A stretch of 64,000 nt of DNA from Phycisphaerae bacterium (lineage in GTDB: Bacteria; Planctomycetota; Phycisphaerae; UBA1845; UTPLA1). The DNA lies in NCBI GenBank assembly GCA_023150615.1, contig JAKLKO010000001.1, positions 419,356-483,355 of the forward strand. Reading direction: 5' to 3'. The translations under genes were made by a program, and so were the position numbers. Each line of letters begins with the position of its first letter. Positions within the stretch are counted from its first letter, which is position 1. The notes below the pieces were generated by a model, which had not been told where the DNA came from, ran no database searches, and was given only the letters and a program-made list of their open reading frames with translations. Below are positions 24,789 to 42,246 of this stretch, piece after piece.

Positions 24789-24925
24789 CCGAGTTTCGTC
24801 GAGAATCAGCCCCTCGGCCCATGTCGGAGGGCTTTTTCTTTGCGCGAGCAGGACTTACGCGCGGCCGCGCGTCTCAATGCAACATGCGAAAATCGTCGAT
24901 TTTCCCGGGGGACGCGAGTGGATCT
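24789..24925 (+). repeat. R-family repeat, copy R1 (5'-truncated), upstream of the SUKH gene
   Basis: Begins CCGAGTTTCGTCGAGAATC and matches R3 (40412-40550) over its length: a CCCTC...GAGGG hairpin followed by CTTTTTC (24811-24837, terminator-like on plus), GCGCGAGCAGGACTTACGC, CGCGTCTCAATGCAAC and the palindrome GAAAATCG-T-CGATTTTC. It lacks the CAGGCGAGTCGCC core found in the other copies. The SUKH gene starts about 115 bases later. A promoter-like TTACGC-17-TGCAAC pair (TACAAT in R3) may drive that gene. Confidence 0.7.
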
Positions 24926-25039
24926 GACACGGCATCCCTGTCCATCGTCGCGTCGCGGGGGCGCGAACTTGGTTGCACGCTGACAGCGCTCGCCGTACTA
25001 TGGGAACGATAGTGGCCCCGCTTCTCAGGATGGAGCACT

Positions 25040-25684
25040 GTGTCCGCGCTCAGGCAAGAGCTTGATCGTATTCTGGCGCATCTGGCACACCGCGGGTTCG
25101 AGACACGAGAGCTCGTCTTCGACCGCCCTGCCCGCCAGCGCGAGGTGGAACGAGTCGAGGGCAAGCTCAGTTTCGAGCTCCCGCCGCGCTTTCGTGAGGT
25201 TCTGCTCACGGTCTCTCGCCGCGTTGGCTTCTGGTGGTTCGCGCCCGACGACGTAAAGTTCCCAGATCCGTTTTGCAGCAACTTCTCCGGGCAGCTCAAG
25301 TGGTCCCTCGAGGACCTCCCGGATTACGAGGAAGCCCGGGCGGAATTGATCGAGAGTGTGTTTCCCAGCGTTGACGATCCCTATGACGTCGTCTGGCATG
25401 ACAAGCTCGCGTTCGCGCCCGTTGGCAACGGAGATTACTTGGCCATTGACTTGTCACCGGCACACTACGAGCAGGTGGTCTATCTAAGTCACGATGACGG
25501 CGAGGGACACGGCTACGTGCTGGCCAACGACTTTGCCGATCTGCTACGCCGTTGGACACCGCTCGCCTGTCCAGGTGCCGAGGACTGGCAATGGCTGCCG
25601 TTCACGCGCGACGGCGAGTCCGGAATCGATCCCGCTTGCGAGAACGCAAGGATTTGGCAACGGCTGCTCGGACTGACACCGTGA
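25040..25684 (+). CDS. SUKH (SMI1/KNR4) family protein
   Basis: 214 residues from a GTG start. The pattern EVERVEGKLSFELPPRFREVLL, followed by the aromatic GFWWFAPDD and later GDYLAIDLSP and VYLSHDDGEGHGYVLANDFADLL, matches the SMI1/KNR4 (SUKH) fold. Bacterial SUKH proteins often act as immunity proteins against polymorphic toxins, but many are orphans. No toxin gene is adjacent. The gene is flanked by repeat copies R1 (upstream) and R2 (76 bases downstream), giving it the look of a single-gene cassette. Confidence 0.75.
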   Translation: MSALRQELDRILAHLAHRGFETRELVFDRPARQREVERVEGKLSFELPPRFREVLLTVSRRVGFWWFAPDDVKFPDPFCSNFSGQLKWSLEDLPDYEEARAELIESVFPSVDDPYDVVWHDKLAFAPVGNGDYLAIDLSPAHYEQVVYLSHDDGEGHGYVLANDFADLLRRWTPLACPGAEDWQWLPFTRDGESGIDPACENARIWQRLLGLTP

Positions 25685-25759
25685 CCGGCGCCCAGGGGGC
25701 TCCACGCGTCGCCCGCCCAGGCTGGCTCGCAGCGAGTTAGAACCCGGCGGCAGCAAGGA

Positions 25760-25860
25760 ACCGTTGCAGGATCGTTTCAATACCAGGCGAGTCGCACCGA
25801 GTTCACCGCGGACGCTTTACAACACTCGCCAGAATGGCGCGGGTTTTGCAAGCTCAGGCC
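25760..25860 (+). repeat. R-family repeat, copy R2, downstream of the SUKH gene
   Basis: Contains CGTTTCAATACCAGGCGAG, then TCGCACCGAGTTCACC, with the inverted core GGCGA-G-TCGC. A perfect hairpin CGCCA-GAA-TGGCG followed by CGGGTTTTGC (about 25829-25850) looks like a Rho-independent terminator for the SUKH gene. The preceding GGAACCGTTGCAGGATCG resembles the bases before copy R5 (GGAACCGCTGCCAGACCG), so the homology extends upstream of the core. Confidence 0.6.
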
Positions 25861-25925
25861 GACGGGGCGCGGCCCGGTGGTTACCACGACGCTCAGTGCC
25901 GTGGCCGCTGTCTATAATCGTTCCG

Positions 25926-26366
25926 ATGGCCGTCCAAGTTACCGTGCGCGAATCGTTGTTCGTTCCCGCGCCCCCCGCGCGTGTGTGGGATTATACCCAG
26001 GATTATGAGTGCCGATGCGACTGGGATTCATCGATCGTCGAAGCGCGAGTGACCGCCTTGGCGCCTCGGCGCATGGTGGCGGTCCGCTGCCGGGGCGGCA
26101 TGCGGTGCACGTTCCGCTACAAAGCCGATGAACGCCCGCGTCGAACCTCGGTTGCGATGGTGGATGTCCGTTCCCGGCTCATCGAGGGCGGCGGCGGGGC
26201 ATGGCGCTACGAAGAGGCGCCTGGGGGTACGCTCTGGACACAGGTCAACACGCTTCGATTCCGCGGCGGCTTGTCCGTCCGCGTGTTGCGCCCCTTGCTC
26301 AAGTGGTGGCTGCACCGCCAGACTCGGCGTGCGATGCGGCGAGCGCGCGATCGTATCGATCGATGA
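25926..26366 (+). CDS. SRPBCC-family (START/Bet v 1-like) protein
   Basis: 146 residues starting MAVQVTVRESLFVPAPPARVWDYTQDY, the usual first strand and helix of the SRPBCC fold, with a later strand of the type GGTLWTQVNTLRFRGG and a final amphipathic helix. These proteins bind hydrophobic ligands, and no specific ligand is implied. The start at 25926 is chosen because upstream codons are part of repeat R2. The C-terminal MRRARDRIDR joins directly to a transposase remnant, so the last residues may not be original. Confidence 0.7.
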   Translation: MAVQVTVRESLFVPAPPARVWDYTQDYECRCDWDSSIVEARVTALAPRRMVAVRCRGGMRCTFRYKADERPRRTSVAMVDVRSRLIEGGGGAWRYEEAPGGTLWTQVNTLRFRGGLSVRVLRPLLKWWLHRQTRRAMRRARDRIDR

Positions 26367-26688
26367 GCGGCGTTGGCGGATCGAGGTGTTGTTCAAGGAA
26401 CTGGAAGGCGACCTGGGACTGGGCGATTACCCGGTGCTGAGCCACCGGGGCATCGTGCATCACCTGCACGTCTGCGGCCGGGTTCATCGGATGCTGACCC
26501 ACCCCGGCATGGACGCCGTCGGTGCACAAGCCAGGAAGGCGAATACGGAAGTCGCGCTGCCGTCCCTGAGCCACCGTCTCGCAGCGCTTCGCGCCGCCCT
26601 CCGGCACGATCAACTGGAAAGGCTGCTCCGCCATGAGAACGACCATCGACTACGTCGCAAACTCGAAAATTACTTGCTGGCCGCGTGA
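26359..26688 (+). pseudogene. C-terminal remnant of a DDE transposase
   Basis: The frame reads IDERRWRIEVLFKELEGDLG, then LGDYPVLSHRGIVHHLHVCG and ends KLENYLLAA. WRIEVLFKELKG-type sequence carries the final catalytic Glu region of IS4-superfamily DDE transposases, followed by the usual helical tail. The N-terminal two thirds with both catalytic Asp residues are absent. It starts just before the SRPBCC stop in another frame. No terminal inverted repeats could be matched, so the insertion sequence is no longer mobile. Confidence 0.8.
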
Positions 26689-26780
26689 GAAACGCTCAGA
26701 TCGAGCCATAATGCGGGCCTCAGGTAGAATATGCCCACGCCCCGAATTACGCCCGGCGGTGGGAAAAGGTCCTCTCGATC

Positions 26781-27347
26781 ATGACGACCTACGAGCCGAA
26801 CGATCAAGAACTCGTGGCGGCTGCGAACGGCGGCGATGAGGCCGCGTTTGCGATCTTGTGCCGCCGCTACCTCCCCAATGCATATAACGTTGCATTTGGA
26901 ATCCTCGCCGGTTTTCCGGATGCCAGAGGCCAGGCCGAAGACGCGGTCCAGATCACTTTGACTGGGTTCGGGGAGATGTTCCCCGGCTTTCCGCACTCTG
27001 ACTCGCCCCGGCAAGCTGTTATCAAGCTGGCCGTCCGAGCGGCGCGCGGGCTCCGGGACAAGGCCCGCCGACGGCGCGAATACGCCGAGGTTGTCGACCC
27101 GCCTGCCCCGCCGAGCGTCGAACCCGATCCGTTGCTCCGAGACCTCGTGCGCGCCGCCGTCGAGTCGTTGTCCGACGCCCTGCGTGACGTGGTGGTCCTG
27201 CGATACTGGCGATCCCTCAGCTACGAGGAAATCGCCGAGGCGCTCGACATTCCTCTCGGCACGGTGAGATCCCGCCTGTATTTGGCCGCCAAGGTCCTGC
27301 GGGACGACCCCCGCCTGAAGGGCCTGGAGGGCCTGAACTGCGAATGA
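26781..27347 (+). CDS. ECF-type RNA polymerase sigma factor
   Basis: 188 residues: region 2 (GDEAAFAILCRRYLPNAYNVAFGIL...GQAEDAVQITLTGF) and region 4 (LSDALRDVVVLRYWRSLSYE EIAEALDIPLGTVRSRLYLA) are both complete, and no region 3 is present, as in ECF sigmas. It should direct transcription of a small regulon in response to an envelope signal. The following gene, 112 bases on, encodes a membrane protein with a cytosolic N-terminus and periplasmic TPRs that could be its anti-sigma partner. Confidence 0.9.
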   Translation: MTTYEPNDQELVAAANGGDEAAFAILCRRYLPNAYNVAFGILAGFPDARGQAEDAVQITLTGFGEMFPGFPHSDSPRQAVIKLAVRAARGLRDKARRRREYAEVVDPPAPPSVEPDPLLRDLVRAAVESLSDALRDVVVLRYWRSLSYEEIAEALDIPLGTVRSRLYLAAKVLRDDPRLKGLEGLNCE

Positions 27348-27424
27348 CCAAGCCGGACAGATCTGGCGACCGCATCGGCCGAGGGCAGGTGGCGAGAATC
27401 CGAATTCCAGTGAACTTTTTAGGG

Positions 27425-27459
27425 TTGACGCGCCCTGTAGGAATGTAAGAAGGCAACGA
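27425..27459 (+). promoter_or_regulatory. Possible promoter and leader before the TPR membrane gene
   Basis: The gap holds GTGAACTTTTTAGGG then TTGACG (27425-27430). A strong AAGAAGG ribosome site lies seven bases before the ATG at 27460. TTGACG resembles a housekeeping -35, but no good -10 follows at 17 bases. TGAAC could instead be an ECF -35 element. Either would make the TPR gene separately regulated from the sigma gene. Confidence 0.25.
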
Positions 27460-29082
27460 ATGGAGCCCCAACGCCCTGGCGACCCATCGGAACCCCTTGT
27501 CCCCGAGGCCCTTCGGAGGGAATTGGCACGCCTCTTCGACGAGCCTGCCCCGATTCCGCCGGATCGCCAAGAAACGATCGTCGAAGCAGCCATCGAGCGC
27601 TTCCGCGCGCAGAAGCGCACAGGGCGGCTCGCTCGACGGCCGATTCTCGCCCTTTCAGACAGGGGCGTTGCCTTGTTTCGATCAGCGGTGATGCCCCTAG
27701 CCCGGCATTGGCGAGTTGGCGTCGGCGGGTTGGCGGTCGCGGCAGCCCTTCTGCTCGCGATCGGGTCGTTCTGGCGAACTCCGTCCGCGCTCGCAGACAT
27801 GTACGTCGATGCGGCCAACGCCGGCGCGGCGTGGTTCCGGCTGGTGGGGTCCGTCGCCTTCGTGCTCGATCTGGATTCTCCGGAGGGCAGGGCCCGATTT
27901 GCCGACCTGGAACGCCGACGGCTCGAGAGGGACCGACTGCGAGAATTCGTCGCCGACAAGAGCAAGGACAACCTAACTCCGTTTTGCCTGGCCTGGCAGG
28001 CGTACTACTGCGATCTCCGCGACCTCGGCGTGCGCGACGCGGCGATTCGCGAGGTCGAGGCCGCGGTGGAATTCGCACGGTCTCAAGAGCGCCCGAAATG
28101 GCTGAGCATCTTCCTCGACGGGAAAGCGAACGTCTATCTGGCATTCGGCGAGTATGCGACCGCACGCGAGGCCTACGAGGAGTCGATCCGTCTCCGCCGC
28201 GCGGACGACAATACGTCATGGCCAGAGGATCCGCATTACGGCGAGCCGGGCTACGAAGGCCACATGGCGTGGGGCATCGCGCCGATGTACCTGCGGCTGA
28301 TGCGCCTTGAGATGGCGGAGGGCAACCTGATCGGGGCCCGCGAGCAATTCGCCGCCGCCGAGCGGGCCATGGCGCAGCGCATCAGGACGACGTGCGAATT
28401 GAACGGTGTGCAACTCCCTCTTCCCCCGGGAGCGGGCAGGGGTGAGGGCCGAGCCGGCCAGTCAATGTGGGAACTCTGGCAGGCCCTGCCGCACGAGTTC
28501 CGCGAGCCGAAGCACCATTACACGGCCGACGAACTCAAGGCGTGGTCCGCGCTCTACGCGCCCGACGTTTCGCTACCCGCCTGGGTGCGGACCGTTCTCT
28601 ATCATGAGGCCTTGCTTCTCCGTGCCGAGGAAGATTATGCCGGAGCGCAGCTCGCCCTCGATCGGGCCGGCCAGGTGCCTGACTACCCCGATTCCGGCGA
28701 GTTCCCCCTGCCATTCCTCGAAGGACTCGAAGCGGCCCGGCTGGCGATCGCACGCAAGGAATATGCCGCGGCGCTGCGGTCGGTCAAGGCGGCCCGCGCC
28801 TTCATCCTCCGCGGCCCCGGCCAAGCGACTGCCGTCCGCCCGCCTGTCAACGAGCTTCCACTCAAGCCCCTCCAGTCCGCAGAACTGGACGCCCTCGAAG
28901 CGACCGCCCTTCTGGCCACCAACCCCAACGATCCCCGCGGCCGCGAGCTGATCCACCGCGCAGTCCGCGTCGTCAAGAAGCTCGCTTCCGGCATGCCGGA
29001 GGCCCGCCGCGAGGCGTTCATGAAACAATTCGAACCTTGGCAAAAGCTGGCGGATGAAGTAGTACGGAGGAGCAACCGATGA
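27460..29082 (+). CDS. Single-pass membrane protein with anti-sigma-like N-terminus and periplasmic TPR region
   Basis: 540 residues: a cytosolic region of about 85 residues, one membrane helix (about 86-103, VGVGGLAVAAALLLAIGSFW), then helical TPR-like repeats (for example REVEAAVEFARSQERPKWLS and YLAFGEYATAREAYEESIRL). The layout, directly after an ECF sigma gene, fits an anti-sigma or sensor protein, but no zinc anti-sigma motif (HxxxCxxC) is seen. About residues 319-330 (LPLPPGAGRGEG) come from a palindromic repeat inserted in frame at 28414-28448. The stop overlaps the next start (ATGA). Confidence 0.7.
   Translation: MEPQRPGDPSEPLVPEALRRELARLFDEPAPIPPDRQETIVEAAIERFRAQKRTGRLARRPILALSDRGVALFRSAVMPLARHWRVGVGGLAVAAALLLAIGSFWRTPSALADMYVDAANAGAAWFRLVGSVAFVLDLDSPEGRARFADLERRRLERDRLREFVADKSKDNLTPFCLAWQAYYCDLRDLGVRDAAIREVEAAVEFARSQERPKWLSIFLDGKANVYLAFGEYATAREAYEESIRLRRADDNTSWPEDPHYGEPGYEGHMAWGIAPMYLRLMRLEMAEGNLIGAREQFAAAERAMAQRIRTTCELNGVQLPLPPGAGRGEGRAGQSMWELWQALPHEFREPKHHYTADELKAWSALYAPDVSLPAWVRTVLYHEALLLRAEEDYAGAQLALDRAGQVPDYPDSGEFPLPFLEGLEAARLAIARKEYAAALRSVKAARAFILRGPGQATAVRPPVNELPLKPLQSAELDALEATALLATNPNDPRGRELIHRAVRVVKKLASGMPEARREAFMKQFEPWQKLADEVVRRSNR
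28414..28448. repeat. Palindromic C/G-rich interspersed repeat inside a coding region
   Basis: CTCCCTCTTCCCCCGGGAGC followed by GGGCAGGGGTGAGGG: outer arms CCCTC/GAGGG and inner CCCC/GGGG pair up. The form CCCTC-n-CCCCGGGAG-n-GGGGTGAGGG resembles a short palindromic repeat widespread in intergenic DNA of many bacteria. Here it is 35 bases long and is read through in frame in the TPR membrane protein. Confidence 0.6.
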
Positions 29083-32000
29083 ATAGGGTGCATGTTGCTG
29101 TCGTTGCCGCGCTGTTTCTTCCCAATCAAGCGATTGGACAGCAGCCCGATCTGATTCCTCAATCCATCACCTGCACGGACTGTGGTGCGAACAACACCGT
29201 TCAGCCTGGGCATTACTATAGCGTAACCTACCAAGTCCGGAACGGCGGCACTGGTACGGCCTCGGTGTCGGGAGGGTGGAACGATTGTATTCATCTTTCG
29301 CGCAATACGACCTACAACGATGGGGACGATATCGGCGGCCCGTGCAGAAACAAGAACAACGTAGCGGCGGGTGCCACGTACAGCCAATCAGTGGCCGCAG
29401 GCGAGTCGGACGCGGTGTTCATTCCGAACGGCTGGCCTGCGGGAACTTCGTATCTGCTGCTGAAGGCGGATGCGCCGAATTTCTTGTCGGAGTCAAACGA
29501 GTCAAACAACCTCTACTCGTTGCAAATAACGGTGCAGGCTCCGATTCAGTATGGGTCCGTGGCTGGAACCGTGAAGGACGCGAACTCCCATCTGGGCATT
29601 CCGAACGCCGCCGTGGCGCTGACCGGCAACAACAATTACAACACGACGACGGACGGCAACGGCAACTTCTCCTTTGGCAGCAACAACATCGTGACGGGGT
29701 CGTACACGATCACTGCATCGGCCACGAATTACAATTCCGTCAATCAAACGGGCTTTCCCGTCAACGCGAACCAGACGAGTTACTGGTATCCGGAACTCCT
29801 TTCGACTCAGCAGATCGTTGCCACTCCCGTTGTCGCCCCGGCCTCCGGCAATTACACCGGCTCCGTTTCCGTCACCATTACCTGTGCCACGTCCGGCGCG
29901 ACGATCCGCTACACCACCGACGGCTCGGACCCGACCGGCAGCTCGCCGGTTTATCCGTCTGGTGGGTTCTCGATCCCCGGTCCGACAACGGTCACAGTCA
30001 AGGCGCGCGGGTACAAAGCTGGCTACGTCGATAGCGCCGTCGGCTCGGCAACGTATGTGATCGCGGCAACTCCCGATTCAACTCCACCGTCTATTACAAT
30101 CACATCCCCAACGGCCAGTTCCACGTACACGACGAACACTGCGGCCCTGGACATCGCGGGCACGGCCTCGGACAACGTTGGAGTCACCCAAGTCGTTTGG
30201 TCGAACGACCGCGGCGGTAGTGGGATTTGCGCAGGCACTACATCGTGGTCAAAGACTGGCATCCAGCTCCAGCCGGGCCAAAACGTTATCACAGTAACGG
30301 CGCGAGATGTGGCTAACAATACAGGAACCGACGTACTGACCATTACCCGCAACACTACTGAGTCGTTGGATTCCGTAATCAGTCGGTATCGTCAGTCCGG
30401 CGAGAGCTGGTTACTGTCGTCAACTTATTTCCTGGAGCAACGGTACTACCGGTGGATTCTATTCTACGTGCCCCGCGGTACTGATCCGCCTGCCACAGGC
30501 GCATCGATCCTTCATTTATTCGCCGATCTTACACCTCACGGCGCAGCGGAAGGGCAGGGAGTCGTTCTGCGTACCTACGCGGGGACCCCTTACCTCCGCA
30601 AGGCAGTCTTGGTTCGTGGCTCGACCTCCGATGCGGTCGTCGAATCCGATCCGGTGTGGCATCACAGAGCAGTGCGCGCCCTCTGCGCCGAAATTATCTG
30701 TCGCGACATTGAAAGAGATCAGACCCCCTTCGATGATACAATTTTCGTCCACCTTGTAGGTGACGACACTCTTGCCTCCTACAGTGCAGCCGCAAACTCG
30801 CTTTTGTGGCCGCCGATCCTTCTGCCCAGTCTGCCTGATATTGGACCGGCAAAAGAGTATGAGCGGCGCATAGCTCTCCTCGTCCCAAGTAGTGATCGGT
30901 ATTTATCCAGTCTGCTTCCGATTCCTCTGAGTTCAGCAGATAATGAGCTTCGATGGATCGACTCGATCATTGCTGACTCCAAAGTCCTGCCCCTATCGGT
31001 ATCGCGATTCTTCTCGCAAATCGACGACCTCTATCCGGGCTGGCGAAGTGCCGGTCGTCGTGCCTACCGAGTTGCCACCTTGAATAGCATCTCGGAAAGT
31101 TCCCGGAATATGCTGCAAACACTGGCCTTGTCGGCGTCCGACGATCTTCTACTGGCCGAGAGTTTGCGAGGAACGGCGGAGTTTCACGCTGGCCTTGCCC
31201 AAAGCCTATTGTCCCAAACAGTGTTCTTTGCCAATGATTTTGCCTTTGACGCTCTTTGGCAGATCGCGCTCCAGCAAGGCCGGCGATTCACAGTACACCT
31301 TGCGACCGCCATTGTTACAGGAGGACGCTGGTCGGGACAGCTAACACTAAGCCAAGGCGTCGCGTTGCACGCGCTGCTAGGGACCGTCAACAAAGTGGTT
31401 CTTGCAGTAGCCTTAGGACAGTTGATTGCCGACTTTCTCTGGGACCCCTCGGGTAGCTATGATCACGTGCGCAATCTGAATTTTTCTGCCGACCTGCTGA
31501 AGCGATTGGGGCTGCTCGAAATCCGAGAGAGTCAGGGGCTGATAGGAGAGGCCGCAGCCGGCGCTTTATCCGAGGATAGAGTTGATCGTATCTGGTTCTT
31601 GCGCGCCCTTCAGCTCCAACTCGCGGCGTCAACACGACAAGAGTACTACGGCGCATTTCATACGGGGTTGCTGTTGGGACCAATCGTGGAAGTTCTTGAT
31701 CCGTCGAGAGTAGTCGATCTTGACCGTGCCAGCTTTGAACAATTTGCGATAAAGGCCTTGGCGGACAGCTATGGTCGTGATCTTGAAGCGGAAATGGGCA
31801 ACCTCACGCGCGCTGCATTGGTGCAGGACGGACCGCGCATTGCTGTGACGTCGCTATGCGTGCCTCCAGGAGCTGGAGTAGTGTCAATTTCGCCACAAAA
31901 AGACTACTATTCTGCTGGGGAATCAATTACCGTGAGCGCAGTGGCGTCCCCTGGTTTCTTCGTCGCCTATCGTTCTGGGCAACCGTGGTCAGGCGACGCT

Positions 32001-32471: not shown

Positions 32472-32488
32472 GTTTGGGCAACGGAGAG

Positions 32489-32758: not shown

Positions 32759-32856
32759 CTAGCCGCAGGCGTTGGCTGTGGGCATGCACACGGGATTCCG
32801 ACGCCGGCGAGGCCCGATGCCGCGGATTCGCCACGATAGACTCGTCGGCGTCGGGT

Positions 32857-33137: not shown

Positions 33138-33156
33138 TGCCGGGCCGCGGCCGTGC

Positions 33157-33981: not shown

Positions 33982-33991
33982 GGGAACGAAG

Positions 33992-34609
33992 ATGAACGAT
34001 GCGGAAATGAAAGCCCGGCTGAAGGAGCTGTACCTGCCGCCGAAGGACGACTTCGTCCTCGTCGACGTGCCGGAGATGCGCTACGTCATGATCGATGGGC
34101 ACGGCGCCGCGGATCGCGCGGCACTCGACCACGCCGTCAAGTGGCTGTTCGCCGCGATCTACCCGATCAAGCGCATGGCGCGCGAACGCATGGGGAAGGA
34201 CTTCGTCGAGCCGCCGCTCGAGGGCCTGTGGTGGGCGGACAACATGCAGGACTTCGTCTGCGGAAACCGCGAACGGTTGAACTGGCGAATGATGATCGTC
34301 TACGAGCCGGACTGGCTCACGGCGGAGATGCTCCGGGACGGCGTCGCCGCGGCGACGGCGCGCCTCGGCGAGCCGCCCGCGAGCCTGCGGATCGAGCGCC
34401 TTCACGAAGGCCTCAGCGCGCAGATCATGCACGTCGGTCCGCCCGCGGAGGAAGCCGCGACCATCGCCCGGCTGCATCGCGAGTTCCTGCCGGCGCACCA
34501 ACTGATCCCGAACGGGCGCCACCACGAGATCTACCTGACCGATCCGAACCGCACGGCGCCGGAAAAGATGAAGACGGTGCTGCGCCAGCCGGTGCGGTCG
34601 GCGAAGTAA
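33992..34609 (+). CDS. GyrI-like small-molecule-binding protein
   Basis: 205 residues beginning MNDAEMKARLKELYLPPKDDF, with DVPEMRYVMIDGHGAADRAA and the later GLWWADNMQDF and HQLIPNGRHHEIYLTDPNRT. This matches stand-alone GyrI-like (SHS2/BTAD-type) proteins often encoded with PadR or MerR regulators and thought to bind or hydrolyse cyclopropanoid-type or other hydrophobic compounds. The start at 33992 is preferred because GAGGGAACGAAG precedes it. Its last 102 bases are duplicated at 36123-36224. Confidence 0.8.
   Translation: MNDAEMKARLKELYLPPKDDFVLVDVPEMRYVMIDGHGAADRAALDHAVKWLFAAIYPIKRMARERMGKDFVEPPLEGLWWADNMQDFVCGNRERLNWRMMIVYEPDWLTAEMLRDGVAAATARLGEPPASLRIERLHEGLSAQIMHVGPPAEEAATIARLHREFLPAHQLIPNGRHHEIYLTDPNRTAPEKMKTVLRQPVRSAK
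34495..34596 (+). repeat. 102-bp direct repeat, copy 1 (partner at 36123-36224)
   Basis: Identical to 36123-36224 except for three single-base differences. Weaker similarity extends about 25 bases further upstream in both copies (CGCGAGTTCCTGCCGG versus CTGGAGTTCCGGCCGG). The two copies bracket the PEP-CTERM gene on the opposite strand. Confidence 0.9.
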
Positions 34610-34621
34610 GCGCAGCGAGGC

Positions 34622-35719: not shown

Positions 35720-35973
35720 CGTGCTTCTCTCCACTGTCGTCGGGCCGCGGGTCGCGGTGGCCAGCACGCCGCGTCTTCGGTCCACCGAATCCCTGATCTA
35801 AGCGCATCATGCCTAAATTCGGGCAGCAATGTCAAGTTTTTCCCACTAGAGTCGCCTGGACGGCGCTTGATTCTCCCTCGGCCGGAATTCGCGATAGCGG
35901 TTCCGGCAAGATGGTTTCTGCCCTGTGAAGCAGCTTCCGCGCGATAGACCATTTCCTGGATCGGCTTTGCACC

Positions 35974-36234
35974 TTGCCCGGTCAATCGATGATTGTGGAA
36001 CATCGGAACTCGGACCTCCGAGCGTTTAACGGATTACTCGCACGGATTCTCGCACTCCACATTCGCACGGATGACGCCGTCGCAATGGCGAAGGCACAAC
36101 CGCATCTGGAGTTCCGGCCGGTGCACCAACTGATCCCGAACGGGCGCCACCACGAGATCTACCTGACCGATCCGAACCGTACGGCCCCGGAGAAGATGAA
36201 GACGGTGCTGCGCCAGCCGGTGCGACAATCCTGA
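35974..36234 (+). pseudogene. Partial duplicate of the GyrI-like gene 3' end
   Basis: The C-terminal 43 residues (LEFRPVHQLIPNGRHHEIYL, then TDPNRTAPEKMKTVLRQPVR) repeat the end of the GyrI-like protein at 33992-34609, with only three base differences in 102 (36123-36224 versus 34495-34596). The upstream part of the frame is unrelated. This is a segmental copy, not a functional gene. Confidence 0.8.
36123..36224 (+). repeat. 102-bp direct repeat, copy 2 (partner at 34495-34596)
   Basis: Second copy of the GyrI-like gene 3' end, with differences at C/T, G/C and A/G. Together the copies delimit a segment of about 1.6 kb containing the PEP-CTERM gene, as expected after duplication or homologous-recombination insertion. 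Confidence 0.9.
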
Positions 36235-36529
36235 TTTCGGGACGGTCGTGCGGCGGACTCGACTCGTGGCCGGTGAAGCTGTATGGCGCGAGCGTTGCCC
36301 CGTCGGCTTCCCGCGAGGTTGGAGCCCTCCTCGCCCAAAGGCGACTAGGATGTTCTCGTGCCGCGACACTGCCCGGGTGTCATCCCCGCAAACTTCGTAA
36401 ACGCCGCCACGATCGTATTCGTGCTCCGTTCACGTTCCCGATTGCATCCGGTGGCGGTGATCAGAACAGCTCGCCCGAAATGGAGAGAGTGCTCCGCCAG
36501 TTCGCGGCGGGGTCGCGGCGCTTCGGGAG

Positions 36530-37369
36530 TCAAGGATAGGCAAGGTCAACCACGTCGCGATTGACCAGAAAGAACAACGCTCGAATGGCGTCGGAACAGT
36601 TGCTCCTAAGAAACTGCTCGAACGTCGTTGGATCCTGCAGCGCGCGCGTGAGCCTTGGAGAGCGTGTCGCGGACAGGGGCCCGGACACCAACAGAGGAGC
36701 GTCCTCGGGCAATCGCTGACCGTTTTCGCGCAGCCAGCGCTCCAGAACCCGCGTCGCCGCCTCAATCTTCAGGCGCTCGAATTCCGACGGGGACAACGAG
36801 AGCCCTTCCACCTTCAGATTCAGAGCGGTGACGCGGTCTCGCAACGCCTGGAGGCGCGGAGGATCGAATGCGGGATGCGTGTAGCGGAGCGTTGCGAGAT
36901 CGTCGCCGACCTCGTGGGACGCGAGCAATCGACCGATCTCCGCACTCGAGAACAGGACGCGAACGTCTTTCTTGCCCGCAAGATAGACAACCATGTTGCC
37001 ATCGGCGTATGCCCGCTCGGGGTCGGGCCGGATAATCGCCAGACCATCCGACATTTGATGTCGTGCCTGAGTTCGCGTACGCCGTAGCGCCTCACAGCGC
37101 TCCCGCACCTGGGAACGGACCGCATGGCTCAACTTCGCGGCCCGGCTGGACGCCAAGAAGTTGTCCGCGTCGCTCAGCAGGAAGTCCTCTCGGACGTCTC
37201 GCAATTCCAGTACGAATCTCGTCTCCCCCTCGGCCAACGTTGGGGCCGCTGTCACGAGGATCGCTTCGACTAGATTGCGGTGCCCTCCAGAAGAACATCC
37301 TGACAAGCCGAGTCCGGCAGCGGCCACGAGCAAATGCGCCGTCGTTCGAGGGTTGCGTGCGACTTTCAT
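36530..37369 (-). CDS. Hypothetical lipoprotein
   Basis: 279 residues with a lipoprotein signal (LLVAAAGLGLSGCSSGG). The mature part is mainly helical and charged (for example ADNFLASSRAAKLSHAVRSQ and SPSEFERLKIEAATRVLERW) with no recognised domain. It stands alone, 140 bases from the next minus-strand gene upstream and convergent with accessory DNA. Real-gene status rests on the signal peptide, length and codon pattern. Confidence 0.6.
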   Translation of the reverse strand: MKVARNPRTTAHLLVAAAGLGLSGCSSGGHRNLVEAILVTAAPTLAEGETRFVLELRDVREDFLLSDADNFLASSRAAKLSHAVRSQVRERCEALRRTRTQARHQMSDGLAIIRPDPERAYADGNMVVYLAGKKDVRVLFSSAEIGRLLASHEVGDDLATLRYTHPAFDPPRLQALRDRVTALNLKVEGLSLSPSEFERLKIEAATRVLERWLRENGQRLPEDAPLLVSGPLSATRSPRLTRALQDPTTFEQFLRSNCSDAIRALFFLVNRDVVDLAYP

Positions 37370-37509
37370 CGAGATTTCCTCCGGCGGAGTGGCACCGTTA
37401 ATACTCAGACCGACGCTCCTGCGTGTGCCACGGCCGCGTCGGCGGGGCTTTTGATCGCCGAACGCGCGGGCGCGATGGTTCGCCGGCCGAGGCTGCGAAA
37501 GCGGCCCGG

Positions 37510-38079
37510 TCAGGCGGCCGCATCCGGCCAGAGCCAGCCGAAGGTGCCCGCGGTCACGAGGGCGTAGAGCGTGCCATCGACGAAGAACCTGGCCGTCGTT
37601 CCCCAGCGCAGGCCCTTCCAGATCGACTCGCTAACGTGATCGAGGGCGTAGACCATGAAGACCGCGGTGCCGACGATGCGAAAGACCGACAGGTACGGCG
37701 CCCCGGCGCCGAGCGCGTGCCAGCCAAGATAGGCCGCCAACGTGCCGACGACGAGGGTGTAGAGGAACCACCCGACCAGGCTCTTGCCCAGTTTGCCCTC
37801 GCCGGGCGGCAGGATGGTCATCCAGCCGACGGGGCCGCGCTTCCGCTTTTCGATCATCTCGGGCGAGCTCATCTCCTTCATCGATTCGCAACAGGGAAAG
37901 ACGTAGGTGCCCGGCTCGATTCCCCGGGCTCGGAGCGACTCCAGCACGGCGTCTTCATTCGGCAGCTTTCCGAAGTCGTGCTTGTGCATCGGCGTCGCCA
38001 TGTGGATCACCGAACTGACGATGAAGACAAAAACGGCCGAGAGCAGGATGGGAAGCCACAACTCCGTCAGAAAGGTCAT
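37510..38079 (-). CDS. Four-helix membrane protein, conserved hypothetical
   Basis: 189 residues with membrane helices at about 5-27, 100-120, 128-148 and 165-185, and a soluble loop between the first two (HMATPMHKHDFGKLPNEDAV, GTYVFPCCESMKEMSSPEM). Proteins of this plan, with the GTYVFPCC-type loop, are seen in many Gram-negative genomes as uncharacterised membrane proteins. A paired Cys and His-rich loop hints at metal or redox chemistry, not proven. It is a single-gene transcript on this evidence. Confidence 0.65.
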   Translation of the reverse strand: MTFLTELWLPILLSAVFVFIVSSVIHMATPMHKHDFGKLPNEDAVLESLRARGIEPGTYVFPCCESMKEMSSPEMIEKRKRGPVGWMTILPPGEGKLGKSLVGWFLYTLVVGTLAAYLGWHALGAGAPYLSVFRIVGTAVFMVYALDHVSESIWKGLRWGTTARFFVDGTLYALVTAGTFGWLWPDAAA

Positions 38080-38111
38080 GACCGATTCTCCTTGTCGGGA
38101 CAGGCTCGCAC

Positions 38112-38741
38112 GTGCGAGCCGCCGGCGTCGCTCGCGCGATTAGCAGTATGCCGCTCCATTACGTCGCGTGCAATCGAATTCGGGCAGGCCCGTCCGCCGA
38201 TGCGCTGCCGATGGATTTAGCGCGGCGGCGAAACGGAACCGAAGGAGTGTCCATCCATCAGGGCCGCGTCGGCCTCCGCGGCGGCGTTGGCGACGCGTGC
38301 GACCTGTGCAACGGCGACGACGACGCCGGCGACACGGCTGGCGACGGGGTCTGCGACGACCTTGATCCCTGCCCGGCGGATGCCGCAGACGACAGCGATG
38401 GGGACGGCGTGTGCGACAACGCCGACAACTGCCCGAACGATCCGGAAAAGACTGAGCGCGGCGTTTGCGGGTGCGGAGTAGCCGAGACCGATTCGGATGG
38501 CGACCGCACACCCGACTGCCTCGACGGCTGCCCCAATGATGCGGCGAAGACTGTCCCCGGCGCCTGCGGCTGCGGCAACGCCGAAAGCGACACCTGCGAT
38601 TGCACCCCTCCACCCGACGCCGCCTGTGGGGCCTGCGCGCCGGGGGTGTTCCCCGTCGTCGGATTTGTCATTCCCATCTGCGTCGTCGGCAGTCGGATTC
38701 GGCGATTTCGTGCCCGCTCAAGACCCGGAAGACCTTGTTAA
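38112..38741 (+). CDS. C-terminal piece of a secreted TSP3-repeat protein with CGxC-type anchor
   Basis: The credible part starts near residue 60 (GDACDLCNGDDDAGDTAGDG) and has thrombospondin type 3 calcium-binding repeats (DDSDGDGVCDNADNCPNDPE, TDSDGDRTPDCLDGCPNDAA), then CDCTPPPDAACGACAPGVF, a hydrophobic segment and RIRRFRARSR. No signal peptide is present and the first 60 codons look random, so the 5' part of a larger surface-protein gene seems lost. The tail is like that of the 1130-residue protein at 29079-32471. Confidence 0.55.
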   Translation: MRAAGVARAISSMPLHYVACNRIRAGPSADALPMDLARRRNGTEGVSIHQGRVGLRGGVGDACDLCNGDDDAGDTAGDGVCDDLDPCPADAADDSDGDGVCDNADNCPNDPEKTERGVCGCGVAETDSDGDRTPDCLDGCPNDAAKTVPGACGCGNAESDTCDCTPPPDAACGACAPGVFPVVGFVIPICVVGSRIRRFRARSRPGRPC

Positions 38742-38751
38742 GGAGTTATTC

Positions 38752-39260
38752 ATGTTCGAACAAGAACTGCGAAACCACGGACTGCTCATTCCTGTCGTCT
38801 CGTCTGTTTATTGACCATCGCGGCCTGGGGATCCGGTCGGGCCAGCGCCGAGATTATCACCGAGATCATCGACGCGACCGGCGGGGAGGGTCATGTCATT
38901 GATCGCCCTTACGGCATCACCGTAGACGCCGCTAGCAATGTTTACGTGACGGGCGAGTCCAGCCATAACGCCTTCAAGATCACGCCTGCCGGGGCAATCA
39001 CCCAGATCATCGACGCGACCGGCGACGGCATGGTCGGACTGGGCGACCTGCCCGGCGAGGCGCTTCATCGACCGCCCTCCGTACAGGCCGCAGCCAAGGC
39101 CGCTATTTCGCCGTCCGTGACGCCTTGCGGCCCCCAAACGAACGGGAAGGCTAACGGGACGCCGCCCACCACGGCGTCGTTTCTGGCCCAACCTTCCACG
39201 ATTCCCGGTCGCGGGTTACTATCAACGCCTGTCGCCCCGATGGCCGCAAAGCGGCCATAG
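38752..39260 (+). pseudogene. Broken NHL/beta-propeller secreted protein
   Basis: AAGGAG six bases before ATG 38752 starts MFEQELRNHGLLIPVVSSVY, which then hits TGA. A one-base shift continues it as LLTIAAWGSGRASAEIITEI, completing a signal peptide. NHL-repeat sequence follows (PYGITVDAASNVYVTGESSH, NAFKITPAGAITQIIDATGD). The propeller ends after little more than one blade near 39030, and unrelated sequence follows to 39240. A frameshift plus a large deletion make this a pseudogene. Confidence 0.6.
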
Positions 39261-39399
39261 AGCAGGAGAGGGGAGAAAGGAGAGAGTAGAGCAGGGACGA
39301 GGACGCCCGTCGGCGCGTGAGCGCGATTGGCCCAAGAAGCCTTCTCCTGCGGTCTCCTTTCTACTTTCTCCTTTCTGCCGCCGGCGGTATCCTGCGAGC
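39230..39399. repeat. Hairpin/purine-pyrimidine repeat element, copy B (H family)
   Basis: Starts TGTCGCCCCGA (39230-39240), then a perfect hairpin ATGGCCGC-AAA-GCGGCCAT (39240-39258), AGAGCAGGAGAGGGGAG, the purine arm AAAGGAGAGAGTAGAGCAGG, about 55 variable bases, and the pyrimidine arm GCGGTCTCCTTTCTACTTTC plus TCCTTTCTGCCGCCGGCGG. It ends right at the GTG start of the four-helix bundle gene. Bases upstream (GTTACTATCAACGCC) resemble the R-family core leader GTTTCTATACCAGGC. Confidence 0.75.
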
Positions 39400-39762
39400 G
39401 TGTCGTTCGCGTTCGAGAAGCTCGTCGTCTATCAGAAAGCCGTCACATTTGCTGACGCCTGCTGCTCGCTGACGAAGGATTTCCCGCGCGGCTACTTCTT
39501 TTTGGCGGATCAGCTCAACCGCGCGGGTTTGTCCATCGCCGCCAACATCGCCGAAGGCAACGGCCGTTTCACCAAACCGGACCGCAAGAACTTCTTTGGC
39601 ATCGCCCGCGGCAGCGTACAGGAATGCGTGCCGCTGCTTGAGGTGGCCGCCCGGCAGGGCTTGATTGAGGGCGAGCGGCATGACAAACTCAAGGCCGATC
39701 TCGAAGAAATCGCCCGGATGATCAGCGGCCTGATCAACGGCCTAGACAAGCGAGAGGTTTAA
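39400..39762 (+). CDS. Four-helix bundle protein (23S rRNA intervening-sequence type)
   Basis: 120 residues from a GTG start: FEKLVVYQKAVTFADACCSL, then LADQLNRAGLSIAANIAEGN, ARGSVQECVPLLEVAARQGL and a final helix. LSIAANIAEGNGR and the SxxE helix are diagnostic for the IVS-protein/Avd-like family (TIGR02436). The function of this family is unresolved. It is known from insertions in 23S rRNA genes and as an accessory of diversity-generating retroelements, but neither an rRNA nor a reverse transcriptase is nearby. It immediately follows repeat copy B, and a remnant follows copy A at 20617, linking gene and repeat. Confidence 0.88.
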   Translation: MSFAFEKLVVYQKAVTFADACCSLTKDFPRGYFFLADQLNRAGLSIAANIAEGNGRFTKPDRKNFFGIARGSVQECVPLLEVAARQGLIEGERHDKLKADLEEIARMISGLINGLDKREV

Positions 39763-39782
39763 ACTACCACAAGAATGCCGAC

Positions 39783-40340
39783 ATGAGCAACGAGTTCGTA
39801 TCGCTCAAACAGCTTGCCGCGGAAATCGGCATGGATCGGTCACATGCCCGACGGTACGTCCTCAAGCTTGGAATCACCCCGCACAAACGGCGCACCCCCG
39901 ATTCCGGGAACCAATTGACCCTCGCGCTAAGCCAGGAAGAAGCCGAACGGGTTCGCTCTCGACGCAGTGAGCAGGGTTTTCTAGCCAATTCGATGCCCGT
40001 AGAGACCGGCGTTGGCGTCTTCTACGTCATTCAGCTTGTTCCGGAACTCGATCCGAAGCGCATCAAACTTGGCTTTGCCGACGACGTAGCGTCTCGCCTG
40101 ACTCAACATCGGACGTCCGCACCGACGGCCGAGCTGGTGAAATCCTGGCCATGTAAGAGGACCTGGGAAGCCACCGTGATGGACACGCTCACGGCCATAG
40201 GATGTCGGCTGATTCTCAACGAGGTCTTCGAATGCGATAATCTCGCCCAACTTATCGCCACGGGCGACGCTCTTTTCGCCGTGTTGCCTGCACCCGCAAG
40301 TCGGCCTGAGTTGGCGGATGTGTCGCCCCACAACACGTGA
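39783..40340 (+). CDS. HTH protein with GIY-YIG-like (T5orf172/Mug113) domain
   Basis: 185 residues. N-terminus (about 1-65) is a winged-helix or HTH DNA-binding region (VSLKQLAAEIGMDRSHARRY). The C-terminal part has VFYVIQLVPELDPKRIKLGF, then ADDVASRLTQHRTSAPTAEL and WEATVMDTL, which follows the GIY-YIG pattern of the T5orf172 group (strand, Arg/Lys region, later Glu). These domains are found in phage and mobile-element proteins and may cut or bind DNA. It is 20 bases after the four-helix bundle gene and is followed by repeat R3 after 42 bases. Confidence 0.7.
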   Translation: MSNEFVSLKQLAAEIGMDRSHARRYVLKLGITPHKRRTPDSGNQLTLALSQEEAERVRSRRSEQGFLANSMPVETGVGVFYVIQLVPELDPKRIKLGFADDVASRLTQHRTSAPTAELVKSWPCKRTWEATVMDTLTAIGCRLILNEVFECDNLAQLIATGDALFAVLPAPASRPELADVSPHNT

Positions 40341-40381
40341 CCAAGTGATAGTGAAGTGTCGCACTTTCGATGAATCGTCGT

Positions 40382-40560
40382 ACGACCGTTTCTATACCAG
40401 GCGAGTCGCCCCGAGTTTCGTCGAGAATGAACCCCTCGGCCCACGCCGGAGCGCTTTTTCTTTGCGCGAGCAGGACTTACGCACGGCCGCGCGTCTCAAT
40501 ACAATATGCGAGAATCGTCGATTTTCCGGTGGGAGGCGACCGGATTTGAAACGGCGACAC
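40382..40560 (+). repeat. R-family repeat, copy R3 (most complete)
   Basis: Runs from CGACCGTTTCTATACCAG through GCGAGTCGCCCCGA (AGTCGCCCCGA at 40404-40414), GTTTCGTCGAGAATGAACC, a hairpin CTCGGC-CCAC-GCCG(G)AG followed by CGCTTTTTC (40435-40459, terminator-like), GCGCGAGCAGGACTTACGCA, CGCGTCTCAATACAATATG and GAGAATCG-T-CGATTTTCC. TTACGC-17 bases-TACAAT could be a promoter for the next gene. The core GGCGA-G-TCGCC is a perfect inverted repeat. Confidence 0.75.
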
Positions 40561-40634
40561 AGGCGCTCGGGATAACACGACGCGAGTGAAGCTGAAGACG
40601 TGCCCCCGGGCTCCCGGCCAACCGAAGTGGACAA

Positions 40635-41177
40635 GTGCCCAGGTCAGTAGGAAAGGTCTGGCTGCAACCGTTTAATCCGGGGCGCGACATTGCCCAGGTG
40701 TCAGTATGGCTGCGCAGGCCGCACGTTGTCCGGTGGTGGGGAGATCCCCAGAAGCAGCTTCCTGTGGTGTTGGAGCGGCCTACCGGGGGAGGAGATGCGC
40801 TGATCATCGCCGACGGGGTCCCGATAGGTTACATCCGGTGGCAACGAACGCCCCGGGCCGAGCTGGAAGCGGCTGGCTTGCACGAGATCCCCGAAGGAAG
40901 CGTCGATATCGATCTAGCGATCGGCGAAGCCGATTACATCGGCTGCGGTGTTGGGTCACGGGCGCTTCATCTGGTTGTTCAGCGACTCGAATCCGAGAGA
41001 TCCACCCCACTGGTCATGATGGGAACATCGGTCGAGAACGCGATCGCGATCAGTGCATGCGAGAAGGCCGGCTTCCGTCGGTTGCGGACCTTCGACGACC
41101 CGGAATACAAACGGTGTTGGCTCTTGGTCTACGAAACGCCGCGGCCGAGTACGCGTGCGGAAGCGGCCTCCGTTTGA
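40635..41177 (+). CDS. GNAT acetyltransferase resembling aminoglycoside 6'-N-acetyltransferases
   Basis: 180 residues. RRPHVVRWWGDPQ, IADGVPIGYIRWQR, VDIDLAIGEADYIGCGVGSR (acetyl-CoA pyrophosphate loop) and NAIAISACEKAGFRR follow the AAC(6')-Ib-like/GNAT pattern, where WW, D-x-x-IG and YEKAGF are typical. The family acetylates aminoglycosides or other amines, and whether this copy gives resistance cannot be read from sequence. It sits alone between repeats R3 and R4, like a cassette gene. Confidence 0.82.
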   Translation: MPRSVGKVWLQPFNPGRDIAQVSVWLRRPHVVRWWGDPQKQLPVVLERPTGGGDALIIADGVPIGYIRWQRTPRAELEAAGLHEIPEGSVDIDLAIGEADYIGCGVGSRALHLVVQRLESERSTPLVMMGTSVENAIAISACEKAGFRRLRTFDDPEYKRCWLLVYETPRPSTRAEAASV

Positions 41178-41211
41178 GACTCGCCGGCGGCGTCCGCCAG
41201 GTATCGGCCGA

Positions 41212-41395
41212 CGACCGTTTTCATACCAGGCGAGTCGCCTCGAGTCCTTTCAAGGCACAGCCCTTCGGCGAAAACCGGTGGGTTTGCGCTTCGCGTCAGC
41301 AGCACTCGCCTGCGGCGGCACGTTTCAGTACAATGTGTACAAAACGCCGGATTTCGCGGGGGAGGCAATGGGACTTGAAAGGGTCGCCGCGGCTT
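41212..41395 (+). repeat. R-family repeat, copy R4
   Basis: Contains CGACCGTTTTCATACCAG followed by GCGAGTCGCCTCGAG, then CCCTTCGGCGAAAACCGG with GTGGGTTTGCG (a weak hairpin-plus-T stretch), CACGTTTCAGTACAATGTG (TACAAT as in R3) and ATTTCGCGGGGGAGGCAATG. It is more diverged than R3 but collinear with it throughout. It follows the AAC(6')-like gene by 35 bases and precedes the second GNAT gene. Confidence 0.65.
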
Positions 41396-41488
41396 CACGG
41401 TGGAGATTGACTCGCTCTGGCCGGAGAGCGAGGATTGTCGTGGCCGGCGGTAGTTCTCGCAGCGTGCAATTAACAAGAGTTTTGGTGA

Positions 41489-42004
41489 GTGCTCGCGATC
41501 CGACCCGAACAACCGAGCGACCGGGACGCGATTCGGGCCGTCCATGTGTCGGCCTTCCCAACCGCGGCCGAGGCAGGACTCGTTGACGCCCTGCGCGCTG
41601 CGGGCAGGCTCACCGTTTCGTTGGTTGCAGAGACTGCCGACCAGGTTGTCGGGCACGTCGCTTTCAGTCCGGTAAGTCTAGCCGCCCCAACCCACGCGCT
41701 GGGACTCGCTCCGGTGGCGGTACTTCCAGGATATCAACGCCGGGGAATCGGTGGAAAATTGATTGTGGAGGGGCTGGCCGCGTGCGCGCGAATCGGTGCC
41801 GGCTTTGTCGTGGTCCTTGGTGAACCAGCGTACTACAAGCGCTTTGGGTTTGCACCCGCTGCTGATTGGCATATGGTCGACGAATACGGCGGGCACGCGG
41901 CGTTTCAAGCGATCGAACTTCGAGCAGGGGCCATTCCGCGCGGGGCTGGACTGGTCCGGTATGCCCCCGAATTCGCTCTTGTGACCGGAGGGTCCGGCGC
42001 CTGA
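41489..42004 (+). CDS. GNAT N-acetyltransferase (YhbS-like)
   Basis: 171 residues from a GTG start: MLAIRPEQPSDRDAIRAVHV, then GLAPVAVLPGYQRRGIGGKL with the Q/RxxGxG/A acetyl-CoA loop, and VVVLGEPAYYKRFGFAPA, the LGDPxYYxRFGF signature of the YhbS-like group. The substrate is unknown. The gene lies between repeats R4 and R5 and has no other partner. Confidence 0.85.
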   Translation: MLAIRPEQPSDRDAIRAVHVSAFPTAAEAGLVDALRAAGRLTVSLVAETADQVVGHVAFSPVSLAAPTHALGLAPVAVLPGYQRRGIGGKLIVEGLAACARIGAGFVVVLGEPAYYKRFGFAPAADWHMVDEYGGHAAFQAIELRAGAIPRGAGLVRYAPEFALVTGGSGA

Positions 42005-42066
42005 CCGACCTCTGGCGCCCAGGTTCATGATCCTGCATCCACGGCCGCGGCCAGGAACCGCTGCCA

Positions 42067-42097
42067 GACCGTTTCTATACCAGGCGAGTCGCCCCGA
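42067..42097 (+). repeat. R-family repeat, copy R5 (interrupted)
   Basis: AGACCGTTTCTATACCAG followed by GCGAGTCGCCCCGA is identical to R3 over the core, but at 42097 the sequence switches from the expected GTTTCG to the hairpin of H-family copy C. The H element therefore appears inserted at, or recombined into, the R core right after CCCCGA. Confidence 0.75.
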
Positions 42098-42246
42098 TTT
42101 TGAGCGGCGGAGCCGCTCAGAATCGAGAGCAGGAAGGATGAGAAAGGAGAAAGTAGAGCAGGGAGGACGAGGGCCGTCGGCGAAAGTCGCTGATGGGCGG
42201 GAGATCCCTCTCCAGCGGTCTCCTTACTACTTTCTCTTCTCACGTC
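42087..42246. repeat. Hairpin/purine-pyrimidine repeat element, copy C (H family)
   Basis: Starts at AGTCGCCCCGA (shared with R5), then a 14-bp hairpin CGATTTTGAGCGGC-GGA-GCCGCTCAGAATCG (one G-T pair, 42095-42125), AGAGCAGGAAGGATGAGA, the purine arm AAGGAGAAAGTAGAGCAGGG, about 60 variable bases and the pyrimidine arm GCGGTCTCCTTACTACTTTC plus TCTTCTCACG. Unlike copies A and B, no four-helix bundle gene follows. Confidence 0.75.

Follow-up and report, generated by a model that had tools for sequence, protein, structure and literature searches.

The window analysed here is a stretch of 64,000 nucleotides from a Phycisphaerae bacterium (positions 419,356 to 483,355 of contig JAKLKO010000001.1, assembly GCA_023150615.1). 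It carries a tRNA-Pro gene followed on the same strand by a row of units separated by five related repeats (R1–R5) and by a sixth site at position 39232. The six sites are probably attachment-site junctions of units that entered the 3′ end of tRNA-Pro, and the units are best read as cassettes accreted by serine integrases acting in trans. We give this reading, which is drawn from sequence comparison, a probability of about 0.7.

Junction cores match the 3′ end of tRNA-Pro

The center of the junctions is the nine-base sequence TCGCCCCGA, which is the 3′ end of tRNA-Pro; R1, R2, and R4 carry one or two changes. An intact tRNA-Pro gene (anticodon CGG) lies on the same strand as the array, 4.3 kb before R1. 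Related genomes were compared (G-numbers denote compared genomes and L-numbers fetched loci), and in G003, G050, G030, and G015 the tail seen in R3, or a related one, stands directly behind an intact tRNA-Pro. A search of 61 genomes with the R3 sequence gave matches in nine, some of them at chance level. A same-strand tRNA-Pro lies upstream at 21 of the 21 site observations whose stretch contains a tRNA-Pro; the stretches of 20 further sites contain none. On contig C70 of the host assembly, a tRNA-Pro(TGG) gene is followed by the same b-type flank as the window's tRNA-Pro and by an S23 gene, with no adjoining element.

An earlier note on this DNA had described R1–R5 as a repeat family lying 35–76 bp past the stop codons of small plus-strand genes. 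This holds for R2–R5, but R1 follows no such gene. The core that the copies were said to share, CAGGCGAGTCGCC, was located at 25784 (R2, one mismatch), 40398 (R3), 41227 (R4), and 42081 (R5) and is missing from R1. R1 belongs to the family by its right half, which is 89% identical to R3 over 145 bp, but on its left side it carries a recombinase remnant of another kind. The nature of the core had been misread: it combines the tRNA-Pro 3′ end with sequence derived from a recombinase. The list of repeats had also overlooked two features with the same nine end bases, the junction at 39232 and tRNA-Pro(CGG). A TTACGC-17-TACAAT box had been assigned to all complete copies. It is complete in R3 only, with TGCAAC in R1 and CTCGCC in R4 at the matching places. 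The accompanying hairpin, T run, and tail are by eye missing from R2 and R5, and another hairpin stands behind R5. Pfam agrees with the labels given to the SUKH gene and both GNAT genes, and also identifies S23, SRPBCC, and DUF1697 genes, but the GIY-YIG label has no Pfam match at E ≤ 0.001. The small genes all face one way in the window, as had been noted, but their orientation is mixed in relatives. A search of the host assembly with the whole R3 sequence, as the note had proposed, returned five places, which are R1–R5; the next match had an E of 0.2. The 21-base arm-plus-core pattern with up to two mismatches occurs at four places in the same assembly (R2–R5), with none on the reverse strand and none in the reversed control. 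The random copies elsewhere in the genome that would have counted against cassettes appeared in neither search.

Left arms resemble the end of a serine recombinase gene

The left arms are of three types: C (RGDxTPVELF; R1), A (RGDSPGIETV; R2–R5), and B (junction 39232). The minus-strand translation of the R1 left arm reads RSDWTPFEPFVQAVEELDP..., and that of R2–R5 reads RGDSPGIETVvqRFlaaa, with RCD at the start of R2 and GMKTV in R4. The A arms and the serine-family C arms share one reading frame, which places RGDSPGIETV beside RGDSTPVELF. Pairwise divergence among eight A arms over 14 codons, a set that includes G051, was 0.22, 0.21, and 0.43 at codon positions 1, 2, and 3. The corresponding values for the first seven codons of seven C arms that predate the pattern search were 0.20, 0.11, and 0.52. 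Both in sequence and in this coding-like divergence, the A and C arms resemble the final codons of large serine recombinase genes read on the reverse strand.

Recombinases of relatives end at tRNA-Pro

Two recombinases of relatives, P0001 and P0003, were scanned against Pfam, and both have Resolvase, Recombinase, and Zn_ribbon_recom domains. The family is present in 24 of the 114 genomes of the order (E ≤ 1e-60). The genes adjoin tRNA-Pro on the opposite strand in convergent orientation. The proteins typically end in ...KPFDVLxEGL..xRGD, and the RGD codons are the antisense of the tRNA 3′ end. A tRNA-Pro was found at the recombinase 3′ end in 25 of 30 fetched loci, one of them with a partial gene (12 TGG, 7 CGG, and 6 GGG anticodons); a stricter automatic rule for a convergent tRNA-Pro gave 22 of 30. 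Three of the five loci lacking tRNA-Pro (L081, L083, and L092) are cut by a contig end or interrupted by a stop.

The ends of two elements, one on contig 6 of G003 (6.9 kb) and one in G013 (35.5 kb), were joined by script. In both, the joined sequence is open in a single frame that crosses the core and continues into RGDWTPVELFLAGI... or RGDSTPVELFVEGI...; both ends are also visible in G005 and G015. Because the joined ends restore one frame through the core, the attachment site lies inside the recombinase gene, and integration would swap the last recombinase codons for antisense-tRNA codons. The exchanged tail comprises about the last 26 residues in the two elements. The catalytic part would stay whole because only this C-terminal tail is exchanged. 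Two further units with a complete recombinase extend ~72 kb (G015) and ~78 kb (G005) from the tRNA to the nearest C-type junction recognized.

Across the phylum, 36 of 392 surveyed genomes carry the recombinase. Thirty loci were fetched from this survey, and a script detected 21 in which the gene's 3′ end faces a convergent tRNA: 18 with tRNA-Pro and one each with tRNA-Met, tRNA-Glu, and tRNA-Lys. The integrase family is therefore wider than the order. Phage and plasmid recombinases are only distantly related, with <30% identity among the matches listed. As a separate observation, the three family members within L187–L216 that end at tRNA-Met, tRNA-Glu, and tRNA-Lys suggest target switching.

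Right flanks recur across genera

The 120 bp to the right of the core were compared among 66 distinct sites; the chance sites L059 and L146–L149 were excluded from the junction sets. Eight families account for 35 of the 66 flanks, and 33 of these are in families that span at least two genera. Controls shifted by 300, 400, 500, and 800 bp placed 5, 2, 2, and 0 of 63–65 sequences in families. A cassette system would be expected to combine recurring ends with unrelated interiors in this way. With 13 sites, the family that has a hairpin-TAGAGCAGG flank is the largest, and an S23 gene was recognized within 900 bp behind five of these sites, one stretch being too short to judge; none lies behind R5. 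More generally, S23 genes often stand behind a hairpin and a purine- or pyrimidine-rich inverted repeat after tRNA-Pro or a core (20454–20690, 39241–39762, and L133), and the R5 flank (42098–42250) is similar without S23.

The eight a-type flanks contain an inverted box that resembles the tRNA-Pro end, located +119 from the core in six of them and +105 in the other two, with 13–17 of 20 matches. Shuffled sequences were as good in 7 of 300 cases for R1, 35 of 300 for R4, and 0 or 1 for the other six. At a threshold of at least 13 of 17 matches, the inverted box was found in 9 of 65 flanks, compared with 1 in the reversed control and 2 in the forward orientation. This low number and the two spacing classes led us to reject a general attC-like inverted pair, and the box is treated as a sub-feature. 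Another class of box is located at +44 to +46 in G023, G040, G043, and G368.

Most units lack a recombinase

Units were defined as intervals from junction to junction, or from tRNA-Pro to the first junction, in the window and the fetched stretches. Removal of one zero-length duplicate interval at R1 reduced 37 intervals to 36. The median unit size is 2.0 kb, and 24 of the 36 measure ≤3.2 kb. No recombinase trace was detected in 32 units; two have a complete gene (6.9 and 35.5 kb), and two have fragments (G040 and G034). Exactly one open reading frame (ORF) of at least 100 aa was called in 14 of the 24 small units by a crude caller. These gene counts are approximate, being based on the longest nonoverlapping ORFs; the caller took the wrong strand in at least two units, both on contig 3 of G003, where it was corrected by eye. 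The cargo supported by Pfam includes SUKH, four GNATs, S23 (two scanned), SRPBCC, DUF1801, a thiaminase-1/solute-binding protein, a short-chain dehydrogenase, an alpha/beta hydrolase, a ClpP-like protease, an NADH:flavin oxidoreductase, and a regulator propeller.

S23 forms a lone unit of 580 bp directly behind tRNA-Pro(CGG) in G007 and one of 573 bp inside the G015 array. The S23 and GIY-YIG-like gene pair of the window is also present in G003, where it likewise closes with an A junction. G012 and G015 have matching DNA upstream of a tRNA-Pro(TGG) gene; beside this tRNA, G012 has a complete recombinase and G015 has small cassettes. Elsewhere in G012, on a different contig, lies a junction similar to the S23 junction of G015.

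Junctions are spread through the order

A C-type arm-plus-core pattern, with one mismatch allowed, was run against the 114 genomes of the order. C-type junctions were detected in 30 genomes, and the reversed control gave no matches. The junctions frequently occur as two to four on one strand within a few kilobases, and spacings of 0.6–4 kb are common. The recombinase is present in 14 of the 30 genomes with junctions versus 10 of the 84 without (Fisher p 0.0002). Sixteen of the 30, the host included, have no recombinase at E ≤ 1e-60.

The A-type arm is rarer. Four of 397 genomes of the class match, and three of these are credible (G000, G003, and G051). A scan of GTDB r220, which may exclude the window's own genome, found the A-arm pattern only in the metagenome-assembled genome WYBU01 (PLA4, labelled Planctomycetaceae), which is G003. 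Four A-pattern matches in viral contigs have no tRNA in the stretches examined and were judged to be chance. One match in G040 is apparently part of a coding gene and was dropped on the same ground.

Organization of the window array

The array begins with tRNA-Pro, a truncated S23 gene, and beta-helix-like genes (a label given by eye), followed by R1, the SUKH gene, R2, and a 13.4 kb unit. The second half runs from junction 39232 through the S23 and GIY-YIG-like genes, R3, a GNAT gene, R4, another GNAT gene, and R5 to DUF1697 (Table 1). Downstream of R5 and DUF1697, no more junctions were recognized within the window.

Table 1. Features of the tRNA-Pro-anchored array, in window coordinates
Feature	Coordinates	Strand	Basis
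Intact tRNA-Pro, anticodon CGG, array anchor; 20445–20453 is the core TCGCCCCGA	20378–20453	+	ARAGORN, Rfam
b-type right flank: hairpin and TAGAGCAGGAGAG, truncated S23 gene	20454–20700	+	
R1 left arm: apparent remnant of a serine recombinase C terminus, 58 codons including the core	24615–24783	-	resembles RGDxTPVELF arms
R1 core TCACTCCGA, degenerate	24784–24792	+	
R1 a-type right flank; weak inverted tRNA-Pro-end-like box inside	24793–24935	+	
SUKH (SMI1/KNR4) gene; sole long ORF of the 999 bp unit R1–R2	25040–25684	+	Pfam
R2: apparent A-type recombinase remnant RCDSPGIETILQRFLAAAGF and a stop; core TCGCACCGA at 25792–25800	25737–25800	+	
SRPBCC (Polyketide_cyc2) gene; opens the 13.4 kb unit R2–39232	25926–26366	+	Pfam
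B-type junction, core 39232–39240; arm common to contig 37 of relative G003	39160–39240	+	
b-type right flank of junction 39232, purine-rich inverted repeat	39241–39399	+	
S23/four-helix-bundle gene, PF05635	39400–39762	+	Pfam
GIY-YIG-like gene	39783–40340	+	label by eye; no Pfam match
R3 A-type left arm and core (40406–40414)	40360–40414	+	
R3 a-type right flank; inverted tRNA-Pro-end-like box at 40533–40553	40415–40555	+	
GNAT (Acetyltransf_8) gene; sole long ORF of the 820 bp unit R3–R4	40635–41177	+	Pfam
R4 A-type arm and core (41235–41243, TCGCCTCGA)	41190–41243	+	
R4 a-type right flank	41244–41384	+	
GNAT (Acetyltransf_9) gene; sole long ORF of the 845 bp unit R4–R5	41489–42004	+	Pfam
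R5 A-type arm and core (42089–42097); last junction seen	42025–42097	+	
b-like right flank of R5: different hairpin, purine-rich inverted repeat, no S23 gene behind	42098–42250	+	
DUF1697 gene behind R5, without a closing junction	42362–42901	+	Pfam

Several other features of this region were recorded. Just upstream of tRNA-Pro, 20062–20313 consists of 21-bp tandem repeats similar to CGCGCGATCATGGGCGGGCGG, and ARAGORN called a tRNA-Pro(GGG) on the minus strand at 19793–19883 that lacks Rfam support and is probably a false positive. The beta-helix-like genes of the first unit (20700–24130, minus strand) are tandem paralogs with 63-bp internal repeats. Just before R1, 24377–24507 matches the catalytic domain of a group II intron in Rfam (group-II-D1D4-3, 44.5 bits). 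The 13.4 kb unit contains a 123-bp duplication (34474–34596 and 36102–36224, 94% identical). About 1.2 kb beyond the window, locus L055 (C11:484545-484679) holds a tyrosine recombinase fragment, and its reading frame resembles DNA within the G013 and G047 elements at 51–54% identity.

Proposed mechanism

A serine integrase would act on a circle in which the P-arm, core, and right flank are contiguous and join it to the end of tRNA-Pro. This joining would restore the tRNA and replace the last codons of the integrase with antisense-tRNA codons. Each newcomer would push the older unit downstream, and repeated insertion would build an array in which every cassette ends in a P-arm. The integrase gene would be lost from most units, and the enzyme would be supplied in trans from complete elements. 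The host array would be an orphan unless a complete element enters. A more far-reaching version of this model is an integron-independent cassette system in which tRNA-Pro is the landing site, the integrase carries its attachment site (attP) in its own 3′ end, and integrase-less cassettes, many of them single-gene, with a few standard ends are acquired, ordered, and exchanged throughout the order with integrase provided in trans. We advance this version tentatively and consider it somewhat less probable than its negation.

A number of observations weigh against cassette accretion by serine integrases. Neither excision nor a circular form was observed, and all support for integrase activity, which we infer, is comparative. 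The host assembly contains no PF07508 recombinase and no relative of P0001 at E ≤ 1e-60, and the window array looks orphaned because such an integrase is missing there. No recombinase with an A-type arm was found in the DNA pattern scans of the genomes, GTDB r220, and viral contigs, and the B arm of junction 39232 has no explanation as recombinase sequence. The codon-position divergence of the 58 pattern-selected C sites (0.18, 0.09, and 0.36) is biased, since codon positions 1 and 2 were the ones mainly fixed by the search pattern; in codons beyond that pattern the effect is weaker (0.49, 0.46, and 0.64). The a-type flank, considered as possibly decayed recombinase coding sequence, matches a recombinase 3′ end only weakly (E 0.02–0.6), and its in-frame stop is conserved. 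For 31 of the 66 right flanks, no other flank was similar enough to pass the threshold; this leaves a real gap in the model, and many left ends are thus unexplained by a fixed half-site. Unit sizes are biased downwards because the 20 long stretches fetched, which cover part of the C-type junctions of the order, were mostly picked for closely spaced junctions, and the crude caller found more than one ORF of at least 100 aa in 10 of the 24 small units. Five genomes besides G000 and G003 have the GIY-YIG-like gene with no recognizable adjoining junction; they contain two bare core strings with one mismatch each and no arms. The flanks of the window array show no synteny with relatives G003 and G013. 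The DNA downstream of tRNA-Pro(TGG) does not align between G012 and G015, so the link between these loci is only inferred. Most of the compared genomes are draft assemblies in several to many contigs.

Alternative explanations

The earlier note had offered two readings of the repeats, a cassette-capture array with sites unlike attC and dispersed terminator-promoter repeats. The first is well supported by the recurring ends with unrelated cargo, the order-wide junctions, and the tRNA-Pro anchors. The second is very improbable. A hairpin with a T run does stand behind the core in a-type flanks, and R3 has a promoter-like box, but the hairpin is part of a tail that also stands behind intact tRNA-Pro in relatives, the box is not conserved, the searches turned up no copies elsewhere in the genome, and the left arms diverge in the manner of coding sequence. 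An integron with unusual attC sites is just as improbable. Each small gene has one site at its 3′ end, and the inverted box means that some sites (9 of 65 flanks) have inverted halves. However, single-strand folding of four sites, another check that the note had called for, gave z scores of 0.5, −2.8, 0.1, and 0.9, which are ordinary except at R4. The six tyrosine recombinases of the host reach at best 137 bits against TIGR02249 (XerD; cut-off 265), and the anchors are tRNA-Pro genes.

The note had also proposed looking for a tyrosine recombinase with matching sites, but the relatives point to a large serine recombinase. It is improbable, though less so than an integron, that a tyrosine recombinase makes the A-type junctions and that the serine remnants mark older elements only. 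A 7.1 kb unit of G051, running from tRNA-Pro(GGG) to an A-type junction, holds a tyrosine recombinase (identified by eye) and has no serine-recombinase match, so other enzymes may share the tRNA-Pro target. PMC8371274 also presents tRNA genes as well-documented targets of bacterial integrases. Against this, the A arms read as recombinase C termini in the same frame as the serine C arms, none of the six tyrosine recombinases of the host is closely related to the G051 enzyme (best E 1e-4), and G051 is a single case.

The strongest rival, which we consider unlikely on balance, is that successive complete elements at tRNA-Pro decayed by ordinary deletion and that the single-gene units were never mobile as cassettes. 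Integration, decay to a cis-mobilizable element (CIME), and accretion are known from other bacteria, as PMC5704250 describes. Such decay accounts for the host genome's lack of an integrase and for the two units of 36 with recombinase fragments (G040 and G034), which look like decay intermediates, and the degenerate cores of R1, R2, and R4 are in keeping with it. It does not account for the shared ends. Ordinary deletion should not leave the same few left ends across genera (35 of 66, with 33 cross-genus, versus 0–5 in cargo), nor an S23 cassette of near-equal length (580 and 573 bp) at different positions in two genera.

Relation to known systems

Integron gene cassettes form arrays, anchored at one place, of small units that usually hold one or two genes and are each closed by a recombination site. 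The window likewise has small units with a site at the gene 3′ end, although some genes of relatives face the other way. Unlike in integrons, the sites come from tRNA-Pro and a recombinase gene, no IntI scores above the cut-off, no consistent attC-like fold is present, and orientation is mixed in relatives. The domain composition of P0001 and P0003 (Resolvase, Recombinase, and Zn ribbon) is that of large serine integrase elements. The best NCBIfam match of the recombinase is CcrB of the staphylococcal cassette chromosome (SCC), with 82 bits for CcrB, 66 for CcrC, and 58 for CcrA against cut-offs of 900, 900, and 700; SCC differs in target, size, and cargo.

The array shares with the accretion of CIMEs, integrative and conjugative elements, and integrative and mobilizable elements (IMEs) that att sites outlive the integration genes and newcomers add at the same target gene, as set out in PMC5704250. 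Like CIMEs, the units measured here and in relatives have kept att junctions and mostly lost integration genes (32 of 36 units without a recombinase trace). Unlike CIMEs, the units are often 0.6–3 kb, a good part of them single-gene, their ends recur across genera, and a serine enzyme is paired with a tRNA 3′ end target. A figure legend in PMC5704250 places serine-recombinase IMEs within genes. PMC8371274 describes attachment sites within the integrase gene for the tyrosine integrases of Archaea and calls them exclusive to that domain. The 'suicidal' integrases of the SSV type described there are alike in having the site within the integrase gene, exchange of the gene end upon integration, and a tRNA target. 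Here, unlike the SSV type, the enzyme would be a bacterial serine recombinase, a tail of ~26 residues would be exchanged, and the gene would not be inactivated. No comparable array was found among the literature matches listed, at the level of titles and abstract starts.

Rows of interchangeable single-gene cassettes are best known from integrons. If the reading of the window array as serine-integrase cassettes is true, there would be a second route to cassette architecture, with a serine integrase and a tRNA anchor, which would show that cassette arrays can evolve more than once. The altered enzyme tail produced by integration could switch the integrase between integration and excision. A gene pool of uncultured planctomycetes, with 66 distinct junctions known, would be opened to testing.

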